Assembly (NCBI GenBank): GCA_946406115.1
Contig: OX291547.1
Span: 14,699,001-14,763,000 of the forward strand
Length of the DNA stretch: 64,000 bases
Source of the DNA: Apoda limacodes
Taxonomy: Eukaryota > Arthropoda > Insecta > Lepidoptera > Limacodidae
Reading direction: 5' to 3'
Shown here: positions 7,462 to 62,112 of the stretch, piece after piece
Layout: each line of letters starts with the position of its first letter
How positions within the stretch are numbered: the first letter of the stretch is position 1
Translations under genes and position numbers: made by a program
Notes under the pieces: generated by a model
The model's input: only the letters and a program-made list of their open reading frames with translations
Database searches by the model: none
Told to the model about the DNA's origin: nothing

Positions 7462-9370
7462 ATGTCTACCTCGTATGCACTTCCGGGCTACGTGTTAATC
7501 TGGAATGACCGCACAGGCAAAGGCGGAGGTGGTGTGTCAATATATCTAAGATCAGATCTACAATGTAATTCAACAATCCTCATCTAATTATTCTGCTTCA
7601 ATGGAATTTATTTTCATAGAAATTAATATACGTTCCACCCTATTCTTTCTTGGTGTGATATACGCACCCTCCACTATCAACTATTTTGACCAACTAGAAA
7701 AATTACTTGAAATACATTTACCTAGTTCCGATTACTTTTTATTTATGGGTGACTGTAATACCTGCTTGTTACGAAATGACACAAGGTCTAATAAATTGAA
7801 AACCTTCTGTTACTCAACTAATACGAATATCCTCAAATTAAGCCCCAACTTTCATGTCAATGATTCTCACACTCTACTAGATCTTATCCTCACTCTCCAA
7901 CCCGAACGTATTTCTTCCCATGGACAGCTTGCTGCGCCTGGCTTCTCTCACCATGACCTAATATTTGCTGCATACAAACTCAAAACACCAAAACTTAAAC
8001 CTAATGTAATTTTTCAGCGTAACCTAAGCTCTATTGATCAAACAAAATGAGACTCTGATACTGGTTGTATCAACTGGAAACAAATCGAATCTTTGGATTC
8101 TGATGACAACAAATTAGAATTATTCAATCGGTATATCACATAATATAAGACAATCACGCGCCAATAAAGCCAGTACGCATGAAACGTTCCCCTGCCCCAT
8201 GGCTTACAAATGAAATACGAGCTATTATGGCTCGTAGAGATCGTGTGAAACGTAAGCATAAAAAATTTCCTACTCAAGAGTATTGGCAAGAATTTAAAGC
8301 AGCTAGAAATCATTGCAACAAGATGGTAAGGAACGCAGCCGTTTTATACATAATATTGAAAACTGTTCTTCTCCCGGTTTGTGGAAATTTCTTCCATCTT
8401 TAGGTCTTGGGAACAATAACATAGAAATAAATATGCTTAACCAACACTTCTCATCACTTACACATGTTGTCGACCCAAAAACCAGGGATTCTACTATCAA
8501 CCAAATTTCTTCAATTCCGATTCCAAATAACACCTCTTTTACATTTGAACCTGTCTCTGACTGTAATATAAAAACGATAATCCTATCTCTAAAAACTAAA
8601 GCAGTGGGTAATTACGGCTTAGGTCGAGACCAGATATTGCCAATCCTTGATAATATTTTGCCTAATATTACCCATATTATTAACTAGTCTTTGTACACTG
8701 ATTGCTTTCCAACTTCATGGAAAATGGCACACATAATACCCATCACTAAAAAAACTGTCCCTACTGACTACGAACATTATAGACCTATATCAATTTTGCC
8801 CTTTTTGTCCAAAGTTTTAGAATCACCAGTTCTCAATTTTCATAAATCGCAACAATCTTTTAAATAGATTCCAGTCATGATTTCTTCCAGCACAAAGTAC
8901 GTCCAAGGCCCTAATTAATATCACTCATGACATTCGACGAGCCATGGAAGACCGAAAACTGACAGTATTTGTTCTTTTAGATTTCAGTAATGCATTCAAT
9001 TGCATCAACCATGATATTATCATGTCTATCATACGCTCCCTAAATATATCACAATCAGCGGCACAATGGTTCCAATCGTATCTTCAGGGGCGTCAACAAC
9101 GACTACGAATAGACGAGTATTACTCTGATTGGTGCAATTTTGACTCTGGCGTACCTCAAGGCGGCGTGCTATCTCCTTTATTATTCTCAGTGTTTATAAA
9201 CACTTCTGTCTCAGTAATCAATTTCAGCCATTACCATCTTTATCCTGATGATCTTCAGCTCTACAAGTCTTTTAGGGTAGACGAAGTTATAGAGTGTATA
9301 AACATGATTAATAAAGATCTTGAATCTATAAAAAACTGGACTGAACAACTTTCTCACACAAATCATAATG
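7462..9370 (+). pseudogene. non-LTR retrotransposon ORF2 remnant (endonuclease + reverse transcriptase, CR1/jockey type)
   Basis: Frames in order resemble an apurinic-type endonuclease (GKGGGGVSIYLRSDL near 7510; VIYAPST and FMGDCNT at 7650-7760; DLILTL and PGFSHHDLIF at 7880-7970). A linker (APWLTNEIRAIMARRDRVKR, 8190-8255) follows, then reverse transcriptase (HYRPISILPFLSKVLE near 8775-8820; LLDFSNAFNCINHDI at 8970; SGVPQGGVLSPLLFSVFI at 9145-9200). The catalytic box reads YPDD instead of YADD near 9240. Several frameshifts and stops separate the pieces, and the frame is cut at about 9370, where a hairpin-repeat fragment begins. It is inactive. The clade assignment is by eye. Confidence 0.8.
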
Positions 9371-9529
9371 GTAGGTTACCAGTACTGCCGCTGGTATTGC
9401 CGTTAACAATAAACGCAATTATCTATTTTAACCAAAACAAAAATACATTAAATAAATACATGCGATATAGAAAGGAGCCCGGTGGCAAAAGTCAGGACCT
9501 TTACTTACTTTTGTAGAAATCAGGACTTT

Positions 9530-43070: not shown

Positions 43071-45972
43071 TCACCAGACAGGCATGCAAGGACCACAGCA
43101 ACCGCAGCATATGGGGACTCCAGGATAGCTACACCGCTTTGGAGAGCAAATTCCAGGCTCAGTACAGCAGTAGCAAGGACATGGCCTGCAGCGGTTTGGT
43201 CGGCAGCAAGGAATAGCCACTGTGTTGCATATAGGTGTAGGAGGCAGAACCGGTGTGCGAGGCTAAAAAACAACAAAACATGCTTGAATTATCTTCAAAG
43301 TCCTTGGAATTTAGTATAAACATAGTTGAGAAGGATTATTTAAAACCATGGACAACTAGGATACTTTGTGGTTTTGGAGTCAGTTTCTGGCATTTCGTCA
43401 ATCCTGTCAGTCCTAAGGAATTCTTACAATGAAGTGCGTCGTCTGGTTAACCTTAATCACAACCCTATCCCATTTATCAGAGTGAAAATAAAACTTTATT
43501 AGGGTTCCGAAGCTTAAATGCGAAATGGAACGCTATCCTATTTTAAAAACAGAAAAAATATTGCAAATGTTTCGCTCGAAAATTATTTTGACAAAATAGG
43601 TTATGAAGTTTTGCGAATATCGGCAATAATTGTAATTCTACGGAACCCTACTTGGTCGGTTTTCGTTAGTTAAAAGACAGTACCTGGAGGACCGAGCAAA
43701 TGGTCGGTTTTTTTAAACAGCGCCATCTATTGTCAAGTAGCTTAAGCGTTGCTCAATAACGTCACCTATTGTCAAATAGCTTTAGTGTTGCTTATTACTA
43801 CTCACCAATAGATTTCAGGAAGAGTCATACTTTTCAGTTTATCACTGCTTTATAAACACGGATAAAACGAAGTTTTCTAAAAATGAAACCTAGCTAGATC
43901 AATTTATCGACCCCGAAAACCCCTACATACTAAATTTCATGAAAATCGATGGAGCCGTTTCCGAGATTCAGATTATAAATATATATAATAAATAATATTT
44001 ATATAATATATATAAATATAAATATATATAATTGCTCGTTTAAAGGTATTAGATATGTCCACGACGTCACTTGTGGTGAGTTTCCCATAACAAGTTTTAA
44101 CGCACACATACAAACTTCATATATGAGCGTAACACAGGATGTGTTGAAACGAAAAAATTGTAGAATGTGTGGTTTGACCTATGTTATCATGGCTTTCGTT
44201 ACCAGCCATAAGGGCACATTCCAGACGTTATTGGGGTACCTCACAATATTCTGTGATCTGTGGTTTAAGCTATAGACTTTCACGTGGGCTCAGTGCAGAT
44301 TGTGAACCTTACATAACACTTTTTGATGGATGCATACGACGACTTCCTCACGACTTTTTCCTTTACCAAAAAAAAAGTGTTATAAGAAAGAAGAAAGAAA
44401 GAAAAATATTTATTTGGATTAAACAACACAATAAGGCCAAAAATAAACAATGAATATACATAATGTCTCTATGTGCTGCTTGTCACCAAAAAAAGTCTCC
44501 CACTCAGCATAAAAGCTGTGGCCAACACCACAGCACTGATTTTCAGTGGGAGCTTTCAGGCTGGCATCGGTGCACTGAGACGGATATTTACATATTCCTT
44601 AACCTATAACTTATTTAAAAACAAAGAACACTACAATAACGAATTACAAAAGATGAAGTAAAACTAAAAAACATGGTAAAAAGGTAAAAAACAAACAAAA
44701 AAAAAAAAAAGAGAGAAGCTATACTATTATTATTATTTGTTTTAGAAGGCAGGGCAGCATGGTCTAAGACATGGTTTAATCAATAAAGACTTATTGGTAC
44801 ATACTGGGTTCGAACGCCCGACCATCATAGATTTTTTATTCAATGTAGAAGAATTTGACATCAGCGATCAACCAATAATACACAATCAGCGCCAACGGTC
44901 ATATGGGCCAAAAGTCATGAACTTGTGGTTCTTTTTTATTGCGAAAATGGCTCCCACTGGTCCCAAAATTAACTATATTTTTTGCTGTTTTTATTTATTT
45001 ATTTATCCCATCCTTTTTGAGGTGTATAGTTAAAGATACACTGGTCTGGGAATGAAGTTTTAGAGAAACTTCGTTTCCAGGCCAGGTGTATCGTAACTAA
45101 TACACCAAACCATTATCCCCAAAAATCAAAATATACCCTGATAACTTATTTATTTCAATCGTGACAGTTGTTTGAAGATGGTAGAAAATGCAAGAAGAGA
45201 CAAAAAGGAAAAGTTATTAAAAGAAATTTATTTCTTTAATTTTTCCTTTTTTTTATTGTTACAGTAAAGTTATTGATAAAAGTATTATGGATTTCTCTAG
45301 TGATTATTTACTAGACGACCCCAATTACGAACCTGGTAATTCAAGTTCCGAGCTTTAGATTTAGCTCATAAGTAAATTGTACTGACGTCATCGACAAAAA
45401 TAAACGATTTTAATTTTTTGGCACATTTTTTTGTTTTTGAACATATTTCCAACCCAGAAATATTGGCGTATTCTCCAGGGCCAGCCCTATTGAATCGTCT
45501 TATAAAATGTATGAAACGGTGTATACTGAACTATACACCGGCCTGTGAACGTAAGGTGTCTGGGTGTATCATTAACGATACACCGGCCTGGGAGAAAAGG
45601 TGTCTCGGTGTATAGTTAAGTATACACCGGCGCTTAGTGTGTTATTCGATCAGGTGCAGGTTTTTGATCCGTATGTCCGTCGCCATAGGCCACCTGCATT
45701 TCCTTCCTAATACTCTGTCTACTATTTATAATAATTACCTTGTCACATGGCGGACACGGTGGCAAGCACGGTAGCACTGGAAGGGCTGGACACGGCTCTG
45801 GGCACGGTCGGACTGGTGCCGGGCACGGTGAGCAGCCTCCACCAGGGCAAATAGAGCAACGGGTCAACTTGTTGTAGGACGCAACGCAGGGCTTCGTAGT
45901 ATACGGGTAGCAAGCCCCACAAGGCAGCCCCGTGCAAACACAAGGATCGAAACTGTAAAATGGTGCACTCAT
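43071..45972 (-). CDS. Cys/Pro-rich protein, two exons, 141 aa
   Basis: Exon 1 (45,739-45,972) starts at ATG with A at -3 (MSAPFYSFDPCVCTGLPCGA) and ends LPPCPPCDK at AAG|GTAATT, phase 0. Exon 2 (43,071-43,262) follows tgttgttttttag and is in phase 0. It reads PRTPVLPPTPICNTVAIPCC, CRPCPCYCC, CCGCCGPCMPVW and stop. Matching phases and Cys-Pro pattern across a 2.48-kb intron, with no competing partner for either exon, support joining them. The protein has about 30 Cys and many CP and PC steps. It is presumably a structural protein of the cluster. The intron contains a hairpin transposon (45.0-45.6 kb) and other repeats. I saw no clear AATAAA within about 100 bp of the stop. Confidence 0.65.
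43500..44035. repeat. interspersed repeat with AT-rich microsatellite end
   Basis: It starts 'agggttccgaagcttaaatg' and includes 'aatcgatggagccgtttccg' and 'agattcagattataaat'. It ends in an (AT)-rich run at 43,979-44,032, typical of a 3'-anchored microsatellite of an insect SINE or LINE. It is intronic to the 43-46-kb gene. Confidence 0.5.
45018..45632. repeat. MITE-like element with 'GGTGTATAGTTAA..ATACACC' ends
   Basis: The left side carries 'aggtgtatagttaaagatac' with an inverted partner 'gtgtatcgtaactaatacac' at 45,085. The right side has three further palindromic copies ('ggtgtatactgaactatac', 'ggtgtatcattaacgatac', 'ggtgtatagttaagtatac', each followed by 'accgg'). It lies in the intron of the 43-46-kb gene. 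Confidence 0.5.
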
Positions 45973-45999
45973 ATTTGGTTTTTCTATTTTTTTATACGG

Positions 46000-47560
46000 A
46001 ATTTTTAAATTATGGTTAAAAAAATTAAAATTATATGAATTTATTTTTTGACATGTGTAGTTTTTATTCTTATTTTAATTTTATGAAAAAGGTGTTATCT
46101 ATTTTCAGAAGAAAATTTATGATTTTTTTTTTCGTCTTCTATCTTATGCATGGATAAGAATGGTAGCACAAGACAGGTTGCTGCTTCAGGTTAACCTGAA
46201 AATTTTATTTTGCAAGATTTTAAAATCAAAGCCTTGTATAGTATAATCTGTATGAAAAATATGACATCCTCATGTCAGGTGTATCAAAGTTGAGAGTCAG
46301 GTCATTTGTGATAGACTGAAGCGGATTGTTCATAAATTTGTTTAAACATTAAATAATTGGTGTATAAATTAAGGGTTGTCCTTTAAAGTAAAAACCTGAC
46401 AATTCACAGTCAAAATGACACAACTTATACTACTACTATTCTAACATCTATCTGTAGCAAACAAAAAACTCTGTAAATAGCCAATTACAAAGCAGCGGCT
46501 AACAGCTAGTTTTTATTTATATCACATTAAGCCACTGTTCCACTTTAAGAGTTACGCATCTAAAACTTCGATAGGATACTTTAGGCTGCGTTCTTATTTC
46601 TCTTATTCGTTACCGATCTTAGCACGCCTACATCCATATCACAAAGTCCATACGTATAACTTAACTATTTGTATGAGAGGGAGGGAGGGAGGAGAGGGTA
46701 TATATAAAAAAAACATGGAGAGAGAGCGCGCTGTAGATATAAGATATATACTTAGGGATCGCAATCCTGCACCCAAATCCCGCGGGATCCACGCACTATT
46801 AAGAAAGTATTTTTTTGTTATAATCGTGTTCAAGTTACACATGTAACAGTGTCAAGAAATTGAAAGCTTTACATTAAAATACAAGTATTTATTACATTGT
46901 TATTATCATATTGAAGTTTTCTGTTTCTGAAAATATTTTCTTAAAAATACACAATGCGTTAATAGTTTGGTCGTTAAAATGATTTCTTACTTCATTGCAT
47001 TTGTGGCCGGCTGCAGAAAACACACGCTCAGACTCTACGTTTATACAAAATCTAAATATTTCCCCCTTTTTCCTGAGTTTGTAATGTACTCACGTGGGCT
47101 TCACTTACTTCCTCGTGCATTTTTACGCAAAATTATGATTTTTTCAGTTTCGCAAATGTCGCGCGGATCACTCACACGTAATGTTCTGTGGGAGTCGCAG
47201 TCCCTATATATATACAGACTAGGCCCATAATTGAAAAACCCATCTCTATACCGTGCCAGTAGTACAGTAACAGTTGTGGAAACCACGTTTTTTGGGTATG
47301 TCGACCCCGCTGAGCACGAATCTACCTGTTGCCAAAGGGAAATTCGGACCGAGAGTCCGGTATCCAAGATGGCGCCCAAAATGCTGTTTCTCTTATATAT
47401 CTCTTGTCTACTGACTTAAAATAATGGTTGAAACGTCTTTTCAGGGGTTTTCTTGGATGCCGAATGCATTGCATTGTTAAAAATTTACAAACCTTAAACC
47501 TGCACTAAGCGTTCTAAGCAGTTGCCGAAACTTTCTTATTCATTTCTCCATGCATTTTAT
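46000..47560. other. intergenic upstream of the 43-46-kb gene, no gene recognised
   Basis: It contains a GGGA-rich simple repeat at 46,676-46,700. A palindrome-like pair spans about 47,190-47,260. Several short frames have no supporting motif. Confidence 0.4.
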
Positions 47561-49900: not shown

Positions 49901-50591
49901 CGATAGTTTTCAATAATTTCCGGTTGCGGTTAGAGGAGTGCCGTCGTAGAAACGGTCATAATTCAGATGATGTAATCTTTAAAAAATAAACTTCAGTAAT
50001 ACATTACAATTCCTCAGTTTTATTTAAACGATACCTTTTGTATTTATTTTTTTATCTATTGTTTAAATATGCACGTTTTATTGCGCCATCCTGTATAATC
50101 TTCTGGGTAACCTAAAGGAATAAAAATAGTAAAATGTTGGCGTCAGGCACCCAGTTTTCGACCAAAAGAAACATACGATTTCATTCTGATACAGATCCTT
50201 GATGTGCGAGTTCTACTCGCATATTTAGATCTCAAAAGTTCAATAGTCAAATAAGCAATGGTAAATAATTTTCCAAACGTCCACTTGTCAGTCCTTCCGG
50301 CCATCTGTTTGTATCTATTTTAACAAAATCCTACCTCTTGTCCACTTAACTTTTTTTAATTTGTGGAGTTTTATTTTACCGTAATCAGGTATTGCGTTGA
50401 AGTAGTAATAACTTCAGTTACTCAATTCATTGTTCTGTTTAAAAAGGAAAATCTGTCAAAGATGTAAAATAACTGACAAAAATGACATTTATAAAATTTA
50501 AGTGAACATTTCTAAAAAACATAAATATAACAAATTATTTAAAAAAAATTAAAAGTATAGAAAGACGAAAAAATCTTTTTATAATTTGAAA

Positions 50592-52371
50592 ATGTGTTCA
50601 ATGTGTTTCTGCCCGACTTGCCCACCGATTTTACCATGTGGTCTGGGTTCATGCCCTTATTCATGCCCACCTCCTGCGCCTTGTTGCCAACCATGTTGTC
50701 CTCCGCCTTCACCTTGTACCCCATGCCCTCCTTGTATATGCAAGCCTAGGTTTAGACAATGTCCCGCACCAGTCATCCCCGATGTAGTTCCACCGATAGT
50801 GCCAGTACTGCCCCCGTGCCGACCACGTCGGGTTATTTGCCCTGAACCCATACCGTGCCCTCCAAGACCTGTTTGCTGTCCTCCTGTACTACCATGCTGC
50901 CCTCCTCCAGAACCCTGTGAACTACCGCCAGTAAGATTTTACTTTAAGGATTCAAAAGATTTAGAAAAAGTAGAAAGCACAGAGCACTGACAGTATAATT
51001 TAATGAAGATTTGATGCTAGAAATATAAGAAAAAAGTGTATATGTACAAAATAACTATAAATTATATTTTCTTTCAGGTGAGGCCCTGTCCTGAGCCAAC
51101 TCCGTGTTATCAACCAGTACTTCCATGCTGTAACCCGCAATGCCCACCCCCAATAATACCCAAGCAGCGTCCGATTTGCCCAAGAGCGCCACCTGCCCCG
51201 TACCCCTGCCTACCAGTCTGTCGTAGCTGCTGCCCAGAGTGCGACAACTTGGACCCGGTTACCCGGCGCAGGCCATTGATCGTCCACGATGGTGTATACC
51301 AGAACAGACCTACGAATTTCCCTGCAGAATGTTACACTCGTCGTAATCCTAATGTTCGTTACTCTGCACAATACTACAGACCGGTAAGTATTTTATTCGC
51401 AACTCGAAAAAAATTATTTGTCTTGGCCCCACTGCATAATTCTGTTTATAATCTTTTTATTTCGGTGTTGCATAGTGATTAGGTATTCAAATTATATTGA
51501 AGTAAATATGTAACGTGAAATACGATGTATTTACCACGTGTTTATTACTTAACTCTCTTTCTATTTGCAATCGATTTTAACCAACTTCCCGATATGCTAG
51601 AAACTTGAAACTTTTAAAATAGCTCTAAATCCGATGATAATGCTATATTTTTAACAGAGAAATAAAGAAAAATCCTCCCGCGAACGCTTAGGTTGTGGAA
51701 TGAGCTCCCTGCCAAGGTTTTCTCTGACTACAGTATGGGGTTCTTCAAGAAAGAAGTTATTAGATTTTTAAAACAGGTCGGCAACAGGCGAGTGATGCCT
51801 CAGGTTACAATCAGGCGGACCGCAAGCTTGTTTGCGAGCTTAGTGTTATAAAAAAATGGAAGTTGTCAGCGGCTCCGCCCGCGCCTAATTAGGTTATCAG
51901 TGTGGAATATCTACGGCAACTACTTGATTACAGTAAGGAAGTTTGCAAGTTATAGCTGTAGCTATAATTTATCCATGTGAAATTTGGCTATAGTAAAAAT
52001 TTGCCTATTTATTCTCTATCTCTTAAACTATCCCTGTGCCAAATTTCAGCTCAATTGGATGCTCCAGTGCGACGTAAAGAAAGGAGATACAATCAAATGA
52101 GTGTGGATTAGACCAGTTGGACCACTGCCCCGAAAGGGATTATATAGTAGCTCTATCCCGCGGCAACGACTGCGCATCGTTATGGGATTCCTAAATAGTT
52201 AATCCTGCAATAACTTTTAAATATTTGATGATAATAACATATATCCAATTTCAGCTGAAGTGGATAAAGTAGGCAAACAAACAAAACTGACACAGTTTTA
52301 AAATAGTATAAATACTAATTTCATTATTACAGGCATGCGGATACTGCGCTGTTGATGTTCCACTACGGTAG
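50592..52371 (+). CDS. large Cys/Pro-rich protein, three exons, 227 aa ('DPVT..RRPLIV' family)
   Basis: Exon 1 (50,592-50,930) starts MCSMCFCPTCPPILPCGLGS, is dense in CPP/CC units and ends PPEPCELPP at CCA|GTAAGA. Exon 2 (51,078-51,383) follows ttttctttcag and reads VRPCPEPTPCYQPVLPCC, later CDNLDPVTRRRPLIVHDG, ending QYYRP at CCG|GTAAGT. Exon 3 (52,333-52,371) follows attattacag and reads ACGYCAVDVPLR, then stop. All junctions are phase 0. The exon 2 C-terminal half and its boundary match the 14.6-kb gene, which lacks most of the Cys/Pro-rich N-terminus. AATAAA is at 52,390-52,395 and again at 52,467-52,472. Intron 2 has taken in a non-LTR 3' end and a family-R repeat. It is likely a structural protein rich in disulphide or metal-binding Cys; tissue and role are not shown by the sequence. 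Confidence 0.75.
51665..51855 (+). repeat. non-LTR 3' end in intron 2 of the 50.6-kb gene
   Basis: 'ctcccgcgaacgcttaggtt', 'gtggaatgagctccctgcca' and 'gggttcttcaagaaagaag'. Same family as at 38.5-39.1 kb. Confidence 0.65.
51856..52310 (+). repeat. repeat family R in intron 2 of the 50.6-kb gene
   Basis: 'gtcagcggctccgcccgcgc', 'ctaattaggttatcagtgtg' and a later 'caaatttcagctcaattgga'. Probably two family-R fragments in tandem. Confidence 0.55.
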
Positions 52372-54999: not shown

Positions 55000-57350
55000 C
55001 AAAAAATGATCTTAGCATACCGGCAACGTTTTTGGAATTCCTATCCAACGATATCCCACACGATGGGGTAGATGAGAAAATAAACACGTGTAGTGGTACC
55101 CAAAAAAAATTTTTTTTCAAAGATTTTAAACTACCACTCTGTCGGCTTGATCAATGTGTATATATCCCTGCCAATTTGCAGCTTTCTCGGAGTAGTAGTT
55201 TTTGAACTAATGCTCGGACAGATAGACGGACGGACATGGCGAAACTATAAGGGTTCCTTGTTGACTACGAAACCTTAAAATGATAATAGTGGTAAAAGGT
55301 AAATAAAAATATTTACTTACCTTTTACCATTATTAAATACAATTTATATACTGTAGGCACCTATACTTAATGAGTATTTTTAAAAATAATTGTAGGTACG
55401 TTACGAAATTGTTGATGAAGTTAAGTCCTAAGTTGAAACTTTAAAAAAAACGTGTAGGCACACTGCCTACTGATTGACCGAAGAAATTGTTTTGTTTTTC
55501 GACCAGTAGTCGAAATTTCAATTAATATTAAATGAAAATAAGAAGAAAATCTTAAAAAAATAATCTATATCAATAAAAACAATGTCCTGACTGACTCATC
55601 AACGCCAAGCCTTAACCTTAACGGTTTTAATATTATAAAGTGGCCATAGTAGATACTTTTTAAATTCATTAGCCAGCTCAATTCGTTGAAAATAGAGATT
55701 ATAATTTTCGAGAAGAGAGTGATTTTACCGCATTTGCAATTTAACTTTCAACATTCAAACTCTAGAGAGTTCAACTCTAGGGCTACACTTTCAGAATGTT
55801 GAATAAAAATCTATGCAAATCTTAGAGTTTACTCGAGCGAAGCCGCACGCAGAAAGCTAGTATTTTATATATTTCTGCAAAATAAACAGACCATGTTCAT
55901 GCCTAAAACATAAAATTGTTATGGAGCGATGACAAAGATCTTGACGACCGAAAACTGAATTCTCAAGCGGCCGACAAACATATTTTGTGGTCGAGAACCA
56001 AAATCTGTATCTGGCCAAATTTTTTAAATACTGAATTTTTTGGTTTGGTTTTTTGGTTAAAGATGAGAATTAAATAGTGAAAAAGATTCCTTGCTCTACA
56101 GTCACAAAAATCTTTTTTCAAAGTAGTTAAGGTGATAAATTTATTGTCCTGTCGTAAACATTAAGTATAAATTTCAAAACACAAAGTTACTTACGTTATT
56201 AAACTCTTAAACGCAAAACATAATATTATGTACCTATCTATCTTCGTAGGTAATACCAAGAAAATTAAACAGATGGCAATATTTTGATAATTCCAGCGCT
56301 TCTGACGAAACTTTTCAAAACTAAAGGTATGAGGCAGGGAAATGGGGGAAAAATCTGATGTCTACGATCAAGTATATTACTTTAACCAGATTATTTGATG
56401 AAAGACAATAAATAAAGCTTTTTATAATAGAGTCGATCGCTCGCGAAGTCAATATAAACAAGGGAGTATCAGTTTACGTCCATAATTGTTTCATATATTC
56501 AACTACCTATAAACTTCTCTCTCTTACTTTTAAACCCAGTGATCTAAAAAAGTCACGATAATAGCTAATAGGTAAATATTACAAACCAAAATTGTTTTGG
56601 ACCATATCGAAGTTTTTGGTATCGGCTATAATTTTAATTTTACGGAACCCTTACTTATTGCGTGTACGACACACACTAGGCCGGTTTTTTTTTTAATGTT
56701 AGATATTAGGGTTAACATAACAGGAGCAACTTTAAAGAATCTGCTGATAATTATCAACAATAATAGAATATACTCTTTTCATTAGATTTTAGGCTATACG
56801 TTTGTAGCAAAATTTTAAATGCAATTAAGATGTAGTTAAATATTTATACAAAAAAATTGATATGAATTGCAATCAGAAGTACGAATGGTTTTAAAATATT
56901 GTTATATAAATTTTCTTTTTTGTCAAAAAAAGGTTAATGAATTATAATCGACCAATTAAATTATTATGGTACGAAAGCTTGCTTTGATTTACTTTTCTTA
57001 TTTACCTTGACGACACTCACCCCTAAAGTGATGGCTAGACAGAAAACAAACGTCAACTGGTAATATCCACTCTTCACCGATTGTATTTCGTCCCATACGA
57101 GATAGGTAGTGTGCCCCTTACCGTAGCGGGCATAAATCAGACAAGAAACTTAGAAAAACACATATCTATTGTTACAATTTGTTGCCCCTTATCAGTAATT
57201 GAACCCAGGACTTTTGAAACGACAGTCTAACGTACGCTTAAAAACGACAGTTAGTTTGAATTAATATTTATTAGTTATACATATATTATGTCAATACAAA
57301 TACACGAAATTTAAAGCACTTAATTTTCTTTACAAAGACTTCATTCTTCT
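55000..57350. other. intergenic, repeats only
   Basis: It holds a family-G fragment at 55,230-55,280 and another at 56,640-56,690. A 23-bp near-perfect hairpin lies at 55,285-55,334 (ggtaaaaggtaaataaa ... tttacttaccttttacc). No gene was recognised. Confidence 0.45.
55285..55334. repeat. 23-bp inverted repeat with 4-base loop
   Basis: Arms 55,285-55,307 and 55,312-55,334 pair with two mismatches around 'aata'. The stem is too short for a typical microRNA precursor; it is more likely a MITE core. Confidence 0.6.
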
Positions 57351-57354
57351 AGGT

Positions 57355-57507
57355 TTACATTATCTGGGTGTGGCAGCTGTAGATATTAATGCATGGGTTG
57401 ACTGGATAACATCTCTGCGTCGGTGGAATACTGTTCTGGAGGGACAGCCCCTGGGGTCCACAGTTGGAGGCAGGAATACACATACTGGGCACGCAGCAGT
57501 TATTCAT
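57355..57507 (-). CDS. small Cys/Pro protein, 50 aa
   Basis: The minus frame starting MNNCCVPSMCIPASNCGPQG ends CINIYSCHTQIM. The upstream codons in the same frame (down to 57,573) look like leader sequence, and the chosen Met has A at -3 (aaagATG). A TATA-like tatataaag sits only a few bases upstream, too close to be a promoter for this start. AATAAA on the minus strand (plus tttatt 57,267-57,272) lies about 85 bases downstream. The Cys/Pro/Asn composition fits the rest of the cluster. The gene is divergent from the virus-derived block that starts at 57.9 kb. Confidence 0.5.
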   Translation of the reverse strand: MNNCCVPSMCIPASNCGPQGLSLQNSIPPTQRCYPVNPCINIYSCHTQIM

Positions 57508-57613
57508 CTTTATATACTTTTCTGTCTTTACTTTTAAATTTGTTAATTTACGGACTAATGTAGTCCTAATCAAAAAAGTATTGTAAAATGTGAGCAGTAT
57601 TTGTTGTTAGGGC

Positions 57614-57622
57614 TATTTATAA
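57614..57622 (+). promoter_or_regulatory. possible TATA element upstream of the virus-derived block
   Basis: 'tatttataa' about 280 bases before the first start codon (57,900). Weak evidence: the region is AT-rich. Confidence 0.25.
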
Positions 57623-57899
57623 CATGTGTTGAGCCAACCAGATTTTTTGAACTAATCTAGTAGATATCGACCCTAACGAGCTGGTTATGGTGACCATGAA
57701 TTTTTCATTTGTCAATTTACTGAATTAGTGCATAGAATTAAATGATTGAATTCCTAGAATTTAAACGTTTGTGAGTATTTCGTCTTAATGACCATTGCTT
57801 GGTTTCGTACTAGAATGGTACAAACAACCCGATTAGAGCCACATAAAAGCCTTAAACCTAAAAGAAAACTGTCGCTTTCATTATGATAAAGTTTCCCAG

Positions 57900-58310
57900 A
57901 TGGTCTCTGTTCAAATTAACGATAAAAATATATCATCTTTAACGTTATCATCAAAGTTAAGTATTCAACTTGGCTTTGAACCAAAAACTAATTTAATAAC
58001 AAAAAATGTTGGAAGATACCCACCCAATTTACATTTAGGATTACCTTCTCAATTATTTGTTTACTGTGATATAATTGATCCGCAAATAGTTGGAGATGTT
58101 ATGACACCATTGTTAAGAATAATACCTTTAGACCCCGAGAAATATATCTATGGTGCTTATAAGATGCATGTATTTTCACCACCCCACTACTTACCAGTTA
58201 TGCGAAGAGAATTTGATACAATTGAAATAGATATAAGAACAAACACTGGTAATAAAATACCATTTCAATTTGGGACCGCATATGTTAAACTACACTTTAA
58301 GCGATTATAA
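57900..58310 (+). CDS. penton-like minor capsid protein, C-terminal domain (virus-derived), 136 aa
   Basis: Residues 64-136 carry the conserved block seen in Polinton/adintovirus-type elements: QLFVYCDIIDPQIVGDVMTP followed by LLRIIPL, then YLPVMRREFDTIEIDIRTNT and a closing basic strand VKLHFKRL. In related elements I recall this block as the C-terminal part of a longer penton-base-like or minor capsid protein. The present frame is short, and its reading frame is closed by a TAG at 57,834, so the N-terminal part is missing or replaced. The frame itself is intact. Its TAA overlaps the next start as TAATG. No intron is apparent. It probably derives from an endogenous virus, and whether it is expressed cannot be judged. 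Confidence 0.75.
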   Translation: MVSVQINDKNISSLTLSSKLSIQLGFEPKTNLITKNVGRYPPNLHLGLPSQLFVYCDIIDPQIVGDVMTPLLRIIPLDPEKYIYGAYKMHVFSPPHYLPVMRREFDTIEIDIRTNTGNKIPFQFGTAYVKLHFKRL

Positions 58311-58312
58311 TG
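58308..58312 (+). promoter_or_regulatory. TAATG stop-start overlap 1
   Basis: The stop of the penton-like frame (58,308-58,310) and the start of the pX-like frame (58,310-58,312) share one base. This arrangement is known to allow termination-reinitiation in some viruses and in the Bombyx retrotransposon SART1. Confidence 0.7.
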
Positions 58313-58756
58313 CATAATAACAGTATTTGTCCCTATGAGCAATATTATTCACACCAAGCAGGATCAGGAATTGGTGTAATTTATAAAGGTGTACCACATC
58401 AACGTGGTCATGGAATAGGAAGCTTTTTAGGAGGCCTGTTTCGATCAGTACTACCTTTATTATCAAGTGGGGCAAGAGTAATTGGTAAAGAGGCTCTTAA
58501 TGCTGGAGTGGGATTATTAAGCGATATGATAAGCCAGAAACCAATGAATGAATCTGTGCAAACACGGTTAAAAGATGTAAGTAGTAATTTAAAACGAAGA
58601 GCAGATGATAAAATTGAAAGACTAATGAATGGATCAGGTTATATAACGAAACGTCAACGTCGGATTCATTCCATTCCGTCAACAGCTTTGAAAGAGTTGA
58701 GAACTAGAAAGTATAAAATTAATAGAAATACTAAAGATATATTTTCAAACAAATAA
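58310..58756 (+). CDS. pX/pVI-like minor virion protein (virus-derived), 148 aa
   Basis: The N-terminal third carries the Gly-rich, amphipathic segment KGVPHQRGHGIGSFLGGLFR followed by SVLPLLSSGARVIGKEAL (residues 26-62). I recognise this as the hallmark of the adenovirus pX/pVI-related proteins encoded beside the capsid gene in Polinton and adintovirus genomes. The rest is basic (NLKRRADDKIERL, YITKRQRR), fitting a DNA- or capsid-interior-binding role and nuclear localisation. It begins on a TAATG overlap with the upstream frame and ends on an identical overlap with the capsid gene. No stop or frameshift interrupts it. Expected role: membrane-active or core protein inside the virion; activity here is unknown. 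Confidence 0.8.
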   Translation: MHNNSICPYEQYYSHQAGSGIGVIYKGVPHQRGHGIGSFLGGLFRSVLPLLSSGARVIGKEALNAGVGLLSDMISQKPMNESVQTRLKDVSSNLKRRADDKIERLMNGSGYITKRQRRIHSIPSTALKELRTRKYKINRNTKDIFSNK

Positions 58757-58758
58757 TG
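58754..58758 (+). promoter_or_regulatory. TAATG stop-start overlap 2
   Basis: The stop of the pX-like frame (58,754-58,756) overlaps the start of the capsid frame (58,756-58,758). It is the same motif as overlap 1, so three frames are chained. Confidence 0.7.
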
Positions 58759-60066
58759 TCATTCTTACATAATCATTCATGTGAATGTATAAAATCGGAA
58801 TTGGATTTATTTGCTTTACCAACAACTCAGACAAGTATTGAAAATGGACAATGGATACACTACAAACCTATATCATCCCTTACAGACGATGGACCAATTG
58901 AATTTCAAATTCCTGGTACGGGGGATGATTATATCGATTTGTCTCATACATTACTACATTTAAAAGTTAAAATTCGAAACCAAGATGGCACCAACTTAGC
59001 TGCTGCTACAGTAGTAGCCCCAACTAATAACTGGTTACACTCACTGTTCAATCAACTCGATGTGTATTTAAATCAAAAACTAGTATCTCCACCAAACAAC
59101 ACTTATGCTTATAGGGCATTTATAGAAACTTTATTAAACTATGGTCCAGCAGCTAAACAATCTCATCTGACTTGTGGACTATGGTATGAAGACACAGCTG
59201 GAAAAATGAATTCACTAGATGATTCTAATGATGGATTTAAAAAAAGGAATCAATTTGTACGTGAGAGTAAAGAGGTAGAAATGGTAGGACATTTGCATGG
59301 GGATTTGTTTAATCAAGAAAAGTTTCTGATAAATGGTGTTGAAATTAGTCTTAAACTAGTACGATCAAGAGAAAGTTTTAATCTTATGGCTGGTGCTGAT
59401 GCTAAACTGAAAGTTACTTTTACTGACGCTACACTTATAGTTCGTAGAGCAAAAATTAGTCCAAGAGTATTATTAGCACATCAAAAAGTTTTAAGTGCAA
59501 CGACCGCTAAGTATCCTATAACCAGAGCTGAAGTCAAAGTGCTCACAATACCTTCAGGAGTTCAGGGAAAAACGCTTGATAACATATTTATTGGTCAAGT
59601 TCCAAAAAGGTGTATAATAGGTTTTGTAAACAATGCTGCTTTTAATGGAAGTTTTAACAGAAACCCTTTTAACTTTGAAAACTATGGAATAAATACATTT
59701 AGTTTGTATATAGATGGTCAACAAATACCATCAAAAGCTTTACAACCAATGTTTCACAACAATATATTTACCACAGCTTACCATACACTATTTTCCGGGT
59801 CAGGTATTCACTTTTTGAATGATGGTAATGCTATTTCTAGGGAACAATATGCAAATGGATATTGTTTGATGGCATTTGATTTAACTCCAGACTTATCAGC
59901 TAGTTCTACGTCTCATTGGAATCTTATTAGACATGGAAGCGTAAGACTTGAAGTTCGTTTTGAAGCAGCACTCATACAAACAATAAACTGTATAGTGTAT
60001 GCTGAATTTGATAATGTTATTGAAATAGATAAAAATCGTAATGTTTCAGTAGATTACAGTAGCTAA
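58756..60066 (+). CDS. major capsid (hexon-like, 'F54H12.2-like') protein, virus-derived, 436 aa
   Basis: The protein starts MSFLHNHSCECIKSELDLFA, followed by IEFQIPGTGDDYIDLSHTLL and NNWLHSLFNQLDVYLN. Later boxes are GHLHGDLFNQEKFLINGVEI, PRVLLAHQKVLSATTAKYPI and AFDLTPDL, and it ends near YAEFDNVIEIDKNRNV. These boxes are those of the protein often annotated as 'uncharacterized protein F54H12.2-like' in invertebrate genomes, which I take to be the double-jelly-roll-type major capsid protein of Polinton/adintovirus-like elements (family identity from memory; fold inferred). The frame has no stop over 436 codons and looks full length. Composition is AT-rich like the neighbours. It lies between the pX-like and protease genes, the usual morphogenesis neighbourhood. 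Confidence 0.8.
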   Translation: MSFLHNHSCECIKSELDLFALPTTQTSIENGQWIHYKPISSLTDDGPIEFQIPGTGDDYIDLSHTLLHLKVKIRNQDGTNLAAATVVAPTNNWLHSLFNQLDVYLNQKLVSPPNNTYAYRAFIETLLNYGPAAKQSHLTCGLWYEDTAGKMNSLDDSNDGFKKRNQFVRESKEVEMVGHLHGDLFNQEKFLINGVEISLKLVRSRESFNLMAGADAKLKVTFTDATLIVRRAKISPRVLLAHQKVLSATTAKYPITRAEVKVLTIPSGVQGKTLDNIFIGQVPKRCIIGFVNNAAFNGSFNRNPFNFENYGINTFSLYIDGQQIPSKALQPMFHNNIFTTAYHTLFSGSGIHFLNDGNAISREQYANGYCLMAFDLTPDLSASSTSHWNLIRHGSVRLEVRFEAALIQTINCIVYAEFDNVIEIDKNRNVSVDYSS

Positions 60067-60086
60067 AATATAATAATTAGAACTCA

Positions 60087-60134
60087 ATGAAAGGACTTAT
60101 TATACTTTTGACATTCATAATATCAACATTCTGA
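60087..60134 (+). CDS. 15-aa hydrophobic mini-frame before the protease
   Basis: ATG at 60,087 reads MKGLIILLTFIISTF and stops with TGA one base before the protease ATG (TGAAATG). It could be a short membrane peptide, a regulatory upstream frame or chance. Nothing else supports it. Confidence 0.2.
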   Translation: MKGLIILLTFIISTF

Positions 60135-60135
60135 A

Positions 60136-60588
60136 ATGAATACTTTAGATATTCAAAAATGTTTAAAGATAATTTCTCCGAAAATTAAACTAAATGTATT
60201 TGCTGCAAATAGATTACCAGTACTCATGCACCTACCTGCTTTTCTCATTAGTAATTTAGATGTTGACAATCAACCTGGATCGCATTGGGTGGGAATACAT
60301 ATTAATAAAAATGGATTAGGTGAATACTTTGATTCTTATGGTCGTAAACCTAGTAGACATCATTTATATTTCTTAAATAAGAATACTAAGATATGGAGTT
60401 ACAATAATAAAAGAGTTCAAAATGACTTTACAACTGTTTGTGGGGAATATTGTCTTGTTTATTTGTATTTTAAGTTTCATGGTAAATCAATGATTGATTT
60501 TGTAAACCACTTTAGTAATAACACTCTATGTAATGATATTTTATTATATGATATGTTTAAAACAATTTTTGATAATAAAACTTTTTAA
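60136..60588 (+). CDS. adenain-type cysteine protease (virus-derived), 150 aa
   Basis: The catalytic layout of adenovirus-type (C5/Ulp1-like) proteases is visible: His50 in GSHWVGIHI, Asp66 in EYFDSYG, Gln96 as a possible oxyanion-hole residue, and Cys106 in VCGEYCLVYLYFKF. All four are in order with family-like spacing, so the enzyme could be active. In Polinton- and adenovirus-like systems it cleaves virion precursor proteins, such as the pX/pVI-like protein encoded here. It starts 69 bases after the capsid stop, without overlap, and ends at 60,586-60,588, closely followed by AATAAA (60,590-60,595). At 150 aa it is short compared with adenain (about 200 aa), but the core is complete. Confidence 0.8.
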   Translation: MNTLDIQKCLKIISPKIKLNVFAANRLPVLMHLPAFLISNLDVDNQPGSHWVGIHINKNGLGEYFDSYGRKPSRHHLYFLNKNTKIWSYNNKRVQNDFTTVCGEYCLVYLYFKFHGKSMIDFVNHFSNNTLCNDILLYDMFKTIFDNKTF

Positions 60589-60589
60589 A

Positions 60590-60595
60590 AATAAA
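60590..60595 (+). terminator. polyadenylation signal of the virus-derived block
   Basis: AATAAA two bases after the protease stop. The convergent gene on the other strand has its own signals at plus-strand 60,659-60,664 and 60,672-60,677. Confidence 0.5.
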
Positions 60596-60778
60596 AAAAA
60601 TGTTTTTTTCTTATGTGTGTGTTTGTGTAATTAGTGGTTAAAAAACAAAAAAATATTTTTTATTTATATCATTTATTCATTCATTCACAATAAAACTCAA
60701 ACATGATACAATTTGATTCAAAGTTGATTTCGAGTAATACTGAAGCTGGTTCTTATAAATTAATTTAGCTATTAGAGA

Positions 60779-61434
60779 TTACTTTTTAAAAAAGTATTTT
60801 TTACAGTTATTGGTTTCTGCTATTTGCTTCGTGATATCAAATATGATACCCTTCGTTTGCTCATATTTTTCATCTTTTGTATCCGTATAATATTTGATCC
60901 TCACTTCTGAGTGTTTCCAATGTTCATCTACTGGTACTTTTTTCAATTTTATGAGGTCATACACCTCAATTTTTATCAAATGTGTAGCATGAGCCCCATC
61001 ATCATTATTAGTAGACAAGTATGTGACACCAGGGATACCATCTTTTGAAGATCTCGCCACTGTAGAGCTGAGTTTCTTTTTCTTCTGATTGGTCCCCTCA
61101 AAGAATGAGTCGATACTATTTCGACGAGACCGTTTGAGCTTTGTTGTTTCTAAGGCCTTCTCAGTTGATTGCTCATCATCCGATGTAGCGTAGTAGTAAT
61201 GCTTGAACGTGTTTTCTTCCATTACGTTAAATGTTGAATTCTGTAATAAAATAAGCCTATGCTTTAAAAACATATTTGTATAATAATTTGAATCAAAAAT
61301 TTGCCTAAAGTGAAAACCTAAACAAAATTGGTTTAAGTAATAGACATTCAAACAAACACATAGTTTTGAGGGTCTGTAATATATATAATAAATATAGATA
61401 AAGAATTATAAAGCAAAAAAACACATACCTCCAT
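60779..61434 (-). CDS. spliced gene of unknown function, 155 aa
   Basis: Exon 1 is ATGGAG (61,429-61,434) followed by GTATGTGT. The 188-bp intron (61,241-61,428) ends ttattttattacag. Exon 2 (60,779-61,240) continues in phase 0 as NSTFNVMEENTFKHYYYATS. The protein has an acidic start (TSDDEQSTEKALE) and two basic clusters that could be nuclear localisation signals (KLKRSRRNS, NQKKKKLSS). A mixed C-terminal half (HLIKIEVYDLIKLKKVPVDE ... VRIKYYTDTK) may be folded. A TATATATA box (61,532-61,539) lies about 97 bases upstream of the start, and AATAAA signals follow the stop by about 100 bases. It is convergent with the virus-derived block and may be a host gene or an accessory gene of the same element. 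I do not recognise the family. Confidence 0.6.
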
Positions 61435-61531
61435 AGCTTTTTTTGAAGTAAATAGAACCAGCCTCAGTATCACACAGGATGAATTCAATCACTTGATGAT
61501 AAATTGTAACTCGAATACTCTCGACTATCCT

Positions 61532-61539
61532 ATATATAT
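61532..61539 (-). promoter_or_regulatory. TATA box of the spliced gene
   Basis: TATATATA on the minus strand about 97 bases before the ATG, leaving room for a leader of about 65 bases. Confidence 0.45.
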
Positions 61540-61724
61540 ACGATTTATCTTACAAGTACAAATATAATTAAAAAGGTATTAGGAATGTCACCACAAACAT
61601 CATTATCGCACTCACGACATTGTAATTAAATAAGAATAACTAATGAACGGAAAAATACGATAGACCCATTACGATAATGATATAAATACTTAACAAAACT
61701 ACACAGAACCTACAGTGATGTCAC

Positions 61725-62035
61725 GTGGTAGTTCTGGTCAAGCGTGAGTCGACGTATCCCAGACACAGGGGGTGGTTTTGAGAGTGGTCAAGCGCGAGTC
61801 GCCACACCCCAGACACAGGGGTGGTTTTGAGAGTGGTCAAGCGCGAGTCGTGCGGGGGCAGAAAAGTTAGGTTAGTTTAGGCGAGGAGTTGGGGTTGGAG
61901 GGTAGTGTGCCAGAACCAACGATGTATTGAGAGTGGTCAAGCGCGAGTCGTACAAAGCAGAAAATTCTTTGGTGAGCTTTTTTTTAGGCGAGGGGTTGAG
62001 GTTGGGGGGAAGTGCGCCAGAACCAACGAATCCCC
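61725..62035 (+). repeat. tandem repeat 'GAGAGTGGTCAAGCGCGAGTCG'
   Basis: 'gagagtggtcaagcgcgag' occurs at about 61,780, 61,830 and 61,928, with a diverged head at 61,735. Between copies are 'cccagacacaggggtggttt' (twice) and 'aggcgaggagttgggg' (twice). It lies immediately downstream of the virus-derived locus and ends in a non-LTR-tail fragment (62,040-62,110). Confidence 0.65.
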
Positions 62036-62039
62036 TCTA

Positions 62040-62112
62040 CTTGTATGCCCCTGGTGTTGCAAGAGTCCATATACGCTATGGTGACTGCTTAAGATCATGC
62101 TTGTTTGCCACA
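62040..62112 (+). repeat. non-LTR 3' end fragment
   Basis: 'cccctggtgttgcaagagtc' and 'atgcttgtttgccac' match the 3' UTR of the 38.5-39.1-kb family. Confidence 0.45.

Follow-up and report, generated by a model that had tools for sequence, protein, structure and literature searches.

The question raised by this locus is why four consecutive virus-type frames stand open in the chromosome of a moth. The stretch in question is a 64-kb piece of Apoda limacodes DNA (Lepidoptera, Limacodidae; GenBank assembly GCA_946406115.1, contig OX291547.1, positions 14,699,001 to 14,763,000 of the forward strand), which is called the window here and whose own numbering is used unless a contig is named. A preliminary description had placed a block of penton-, pX-, hexon- and protease-like frames at 57,900-60,588 and offered three possibilities: a retained capsid module that could form particles, a very recent integration, or a fragment of a larger element. 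We found support for the last two in about 200 near-identical copies of the element in the genome. The block is almost certainly the right-hand 4.2 kb (57,844-62,041, + strand) of a young, high-copy insect Polinton/adintovirus, a 5'-truncated and defective copy of an element whose complete form measures about 12.85 kb.

The four + strand frames run, stop to stop, over 57,837-58,310, 58,301-58,756, 58,735-60,066 and 60,121-60,588. They are uninterrupted, as had been claimed, and their relatives place them far beyond chance, but only three of the four are complete, the penton being the exception. Both proposed edges of the block had to be moved. In our search of the assembly (800 Mb in 31 contigs, the window being C7:14,699,001-14,763,000), the match to the window starts at 57,844 in 7 of 7 other loci from the hexon search, and a 40-mer across this left junction (57,843/57,844) occurs once genome-wide with up to two mismatches allowed. 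Near 57,900, where the block had been proposed to start, lies the first ATG in frame past the junction, which is not the native start. At the other side, the element does not end at 60,588 but extends through a fifth gene, encoded on the minus strand, and a right terminal repeat to 62,041, where the other copies also terminate and where the window copy ends in ...ACGAATCCCCTCTACT. The bases directly after this terminus, TGTATG (62,042-62,047), represent the expected 6-bp target duplication, which is unmatched because the left end of the window copy is gone.

The protein names given in the preliminary description were borne out, on evidence of different kinds. Of 6,562 candidates, 2,099 proved to be relatives of the hexon frame (58,756-60,066, +; 436 aa, complete); the best is a Parnassius mnemosyne protein with 82% identity over the whole length, and the other best named one is a Melitaea cinxia protein (81%, "F54H12.2-like"). 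A search against capsid families by sequence and structure had been proposed; the AlphaFold2 model of the hexon (mean pLDDT 76) matches capsid proteins of an iridovirus, PBCV-1, Mavirus and Sputnik, with E values between 6e-15 and 5e-14. Its predicted fold thus identifies the frame as the hexon, a double jelly-roll capsid protein. Profile searches were uninformative: the window proteins gave no capsid-gene matches in Pfam and nothing useful in PHROGs, viral contigs, prokaryote genome contigs or phage records, and the best rows of a PDB sequence search with hexon and penton profiles were unrelated proteins (E 0.2, 0.019 and 0.4, the last being the best for the penton). As an observation apart, the closest hexon relative (database protein P0006) represents a P. 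mnemosyne cluster of 164 member sequences, and a similar high-copy state may exist in that species.

The penton fragment (57,844-58,310, +) belongs to a sequence family of about 255 aa encoded one gene upstream of the hexon, with 123 relatives among 165 candidates when a padded query was used; the best 40 are 250-268 aa long. In a full copy of the same genome the penton has 253 aa, of which the window keeps the last ~154 and loses the first ~99 (39% of the length), including the native start. When 120 listed penton relatives were compared with the window by tblastn, 99 of 123 alignments to the block started at residues 85-124 of the relative, most often at window positions 57,843-57,858, and the N-terminal piece had no credible match elsewhere in the window (best outside the block, E 0.077). 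The penton is truncated because the element itself is cut at 57,843/57,844. The pX-like frame (58,310-58,756, +; 148 aa), presumably a small virion protein as its name, taken over from the preliminary description, implies, is complete, and is fused ahead of the hexon in the Leptosia nina gene model P0024; no Pfam or PHROGs profile matched it. The fourth frame (60,136-60,588, +; 150 aa, complete) shows a weak alignment (E 0.054) to S273R, the protease of African swine fever virus, in which His, Asp/Asn, Gln and Cys are paired; we take the putative residues His50, Asp66, Gln95 and Cys102 to be catalytic. It had no Pfam match, and is likely, although not proven, to be an adenain-like cysteine protease.

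What the window copy lacks can be read from its relatives. The hexon search gave 96 scored matches at 99-100% identity, the window's own included, and 94 of the 96 were free of internal stops, a figure that leans high in that these are the scored part of 444 first-look candidates. Twelve other copies, taken from the top of this list, share 5.4-6.6 kb upstream of the hexon as fetched, with some gaps. The full copy L009 carries there, in order, a polymerase-like frame, a P-loop ATPase, a 109-aa frame, a 255-aa frame, an integrase and the 253-aa penton, followed by pX, hexon and protease. The integrase matches rve (E 2.7e-13) and Chromo (E 3.6e-9), both above Pfam cut-offs. The ATPase (219-233 aa) matches P-loop models, with Pox_A32 at E 0.012, below the cut-off. 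The polymerase-like frame (740 aa) contains YTDTDS, which we take to be a polymerase motif; searches of Pfam, NCBIfam and PHROGs brought up no polymerase profile for it, and the PDB gave no match at all. As the preliminary description had noted, none of the replication, integration and packaging genes lies near the block: tblastn with the full-copy proteins (E up to 1; for the polymerase, the 740-aa C-terminal part only) detected no ATPase, integrase or polymerase-frame relative in the 64-kb window outside the block, the sole matches being two of the 255-aa frame at E 0.93 and 0.97.

Genome-wide counts of signature sequences, with up to one mismatch, gave 220 for the integrase, 216 for a hexon 36-mer and 197 for the polymerase frame, and the capsid genes are therefore not enriched over the integration genes. 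The terminal 27-mer occurs 294 + 294 = 588 times exactly, and its reversed control 0 times. Of the 73 hexon sites on C1-C8, 64 are preceded by an integrase site no more than 6.5 kb upstream, the distance being 2,250-2,400 bases in 57 cases; 11 of the 73 have no polymerase site within 12 kb, and 2, one of which is the window copy, have neither an integrase nor a polymerase site. Among the 12 other copies, complete frames were found for the hexon in 12, for pX and the protease in 11 each, for the integrase in 10 (counted at 300 aa or more; 9 of the 10 have 359 aa), for the accessory gene described below in 10 and for the penton in 9; all six genes are complete in 4 copies, or in 5 if a 326-aa integrase is counted.

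The copies are very similar to one another. Over the segment equivalent to the window element, the mean pairwise difference among 13 copies, the window copy included, is 0.297% (range 0.079-0.581), and gap-free columns hold 56 private and 6 shared variants, with a single private change in the window copy. A difference of 0.3% made up mostly of private changes points to a very recent spread, and the idea of an old fossil was rejected on the same figure. The private coding changes comprise 22 replacements, 1 stop and 15 silent changes (23 of 38 replace a residue or introduce a stop, where 72.5% would be expected; p 0.10), whereas the shared coding changes comprise 0 replacements and 5 silent changes (Fisher p 0.016). 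Although the numbers are small, this fits constraint during replication of the element and little afterwards. If indels arise at 10% of the substitution rate, 2,664 coding bases would stay unbroken without selection with a chance of 0.91 at the window copy's divergence and of 0.67 at the mean divergence; the frames are open because the copy is young and has had too little time to decay. With the Heliconius rate of 2.9e-9 and an assumed, not counted, 3,650 compared columns, the window copy would be about 94,000 generations old (2,400-526,000) and the 13 copies about 407,000 on average.

These data leave little room for a module kept by the host, in which pX, hexon and protease would be maintained for particle formation or for interference with infecting relatives. 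We regard this as very improbable, although several observations are in its favor: three frames are complete; the private changes in the 13 copies fall slightly short of replacements; and the window proteins seldom depart from their families at conserved sites, at 2 of 97 in the hexon (114 of the 120 listed relatives used after length and letter filters; 21% of them depart as much or more) and at 0 of 36 in the penton fragment (89 of 120). However, the completeness of pX, hexon and protease is nothing special when most of the 12 other copies have it too, and one private change makes the window copy too young for retention to show. A penton lacking 39% of its length together with its start, a junction private to this copy, capsid genes no more numerous than the integrase and private changes near neutral all speak against a retained capsid module, and the block is neither a complete module nor set apart from young mobile copies, of which the genome holds about 200. 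From the sequence alone, we see no sign that the host uses the window block. Equally hard to credit is an assembly artefact, either a misjoin of repeat copies or viral contamination. About 200 near-identical copies do invite misjoins, but the contigs have the size of chromosomes (34 Mb for C7), the matching target duplications in every copy read at both ends indicate that the family is chromosomal, and the right terminus of the window copy is regular at the level of the assembly, from which alone the left junction is also known.

A truncated, defective Polinton/adintovirus copy could have arisen in two ways, in that its left ~8.65 kb may have been lost through incomplete integration or through later deletion. 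That the copy was truncated from birth, a partial viral genome having integrated aberrantly, is a real possibility toward which we do not quite lean. No partner TGTATG was found at 56,001-58,200 near the left junction, and flank and element share at most a few bases at the break, both of which agree with truncation at birth; a later deletion of the left end together with its flank, however, would leave an identical picture. Several points weigh against our overall reading or limit it. The 12 comparison copies, by the way they were chosen, are biased toward good hexons. The protease assignment depends on a match at E 0.054, the ATPase matches generic P-loop models alone, and the polymerase frame is putative, named from its motif and position alone. 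The private replacements are also somewhat few (p 0.10), which may reflect weak constraint.

The terminal structure agrees with that of a Polinton/Maverick. The right terminal inverted repeat (60,747-62,041, about 1.3 kb) is an inverted match to the left end of the full copy, with 96.4% identity over 1,287 columns and 100% over the outer 53 bases. In complete copies the terminal inverted repeats, likewise about 1.3 kb, start with AGTAGAGGGG, the terminus reading AGTAGAGGGG...CCCCTCTACT. Within the pieces fetched, 10 of the 12 copies showed the terminus on the left and 6 showed it on the right; both ends were read in 6 copies, and every one of these is flanked by perfect 6-bp target duplications. 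The fifth gene (60,779-61,273, minus strand), which we call the accessory gene, encodes 164 aa and occurs at both ends of the element because it is contained in the terminal inverted repeat; a 164-aa frame is present in 11 of 12 left pieces, the twelfth copy having no left end. Its family has 13 relatives among 29 candidates, and the 7 that are named all come from moths and butterflies. One accessory-gene relative and one penton relative carry the same longest-contig figure, 7,356, which suggests, but does not prove, that the two genes are linked in another species. Structure prediction for the accessory protein gave a model of too low quality (pLDDT 50) to be used. Its profile hit a designed protein in the PDB at E 3.6e-8 with no single stretch passing alone, and this hit was set aside as chance. 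Inside the right terminal repeat lie tandem repeats (61,719-62,029); we also observed that units of ~50 and ~100 bp characterize its outer end (61,719-62,041), where copies vary by gaps.

The same termini are used by a second, shorter class of elements. From the first 100 places of the terminal 27-mer list (C1-C4), 29 terminus pairs were chosen by eye: 18 were shorter than 9 kb and contained a hexon or integrase site in 0 cases, whereas 11 measured 12.7-16.0 kb and contained a hexon in 10 cases and an integrase site in 9. Six short elements were fetched, namely L033-L038 (C1:734843-741309, C2:25485977-25490360, C1:6075967-6080050, C3:14520290-14525489, C4:9892752-9899541 and C2:31574464-31583121). 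Long inverted arms (0.8-3.1 kb, 96.8-99.9% identity) occur in all six, and five have perfect 6-bp duplications. Sequence in common with the full element, with an average identity of 77-85%, consists of the terminal repeat and decayed stretches of the polymerase region, and none of the six matched the integrase-to-protease part. They are probably non-autonomous foldback passengers moved by Polinton enzymes, movement in trans being suggested because termini and duplications are shared. Two other arrangements were noted in passing. At C3:6336430-6368294 eight integrase sites follow one another on the same strand, with 5 of 7 spacings at 3.9-4.2 kb and two at 6.0 kb; an integrase-bearing piece of the element is repeated there in tandem. 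Atypical long terminus pairs occur at C3:36197215-36213242 and C3:31260488-31273348, one of 16.0 kb with a hexon and no integrase site and one of 12.86 kb with neither.

The element joins the known Maverick/adintovirus/Polinton kind and is itself newly described; among open-licence papers, no title or abstract opening dealt with this element or with palindromic derivatives of Polintons. According to the passages of PMC5803895 that describe them, the Spodoptera frugiperda elements Sf Maverick 1 and 2 have genes for an ATPase, an integrase with chromodomain and a protease of adenovirus type, together with a large polymerase gene that weakly matches endonuclease VII, and were reported to be transcribed. 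The present gene set resembles theirs in the integrase with chromodomain and, as far as they are correctly named, in the putative ATPase, the probable protease and the polymerase-like frame. As compared by description, it differs in its 436-aa hexon, where Sf Maverick has a 404-aa ORF7 and a CAP protein that matches PLA2 and parvovirus VP1, as well as in the order integrase-penton-pX-hexon-protease and in an accessory gene placed in both terminal repeats. Adintoviruses, as outlined in the consulted part of PMC11071296, are defined by an integrase with chromodomain together with a recognisable hexon and polymerase. Our element is like them in its integrase with C-terminal chromodomain, hexon, presumed penton, probable protease and polymerase-like frame, and unlike them in being known from about 200 integrated copies alone. 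PMC4028283 established the PX (penton) and PY (major capsid) genes of Polintons and gives Polintons as 15-20 kb long; the double jelly-roll hexon, the presumed penton one gene upstream, the putative ATPase and the probable protease correspond, although the present element is shorter. The window hexon is also 53% identical (E 3.2e-39) to R9XLG5 of Cotesia sesamiae Mombasa bracovirus, which, unlike the window element, belongs to the record of a polydnavirus. PMC5803895, citing Dupuy 2011, mentions that a bracovirus circle of the related wasp C. congregata contains a partial Maverick.

The dead transposons said to surround the block were checked by sample, which gave a reverse-transcriptase frame at 8,881-9,516 (Pfam E 7.4e-18). 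Small Cys-/Pro-rich frames at 45,634-46,074, 50,553-51,482 and 57,355-57,606 look, from their translations, like sperm-type structural proteins, and the element starts about 240 bases from the last of them.

Taken as a family, the complete elements would copy themselves with their own protein-primed polymerase and insert via their own integrase, and they may be packaged in virions. About 200 star-like insertions with 6-bp duplications, accompanied by palindromic foldbacks that have the exact termini, lack capsid and integrase genes and would be moved in trans, lead us to suggest, tentatively and as a rather unlikely reading at present, that an animal Polinton virus has been caught in or just after an outbreak together with its own parasites, which would resemble defective snap-back genomes. 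What had looked like a possible domesticated capsid module is, on the main reading, a countable and datable event, namely a very recent high-copy Polinton expansion. A family with complete copies, partial copies and foldback derivatives side by side lets one ask whether animal Polintons spread as germ-line transposons or as viruses between individuals.

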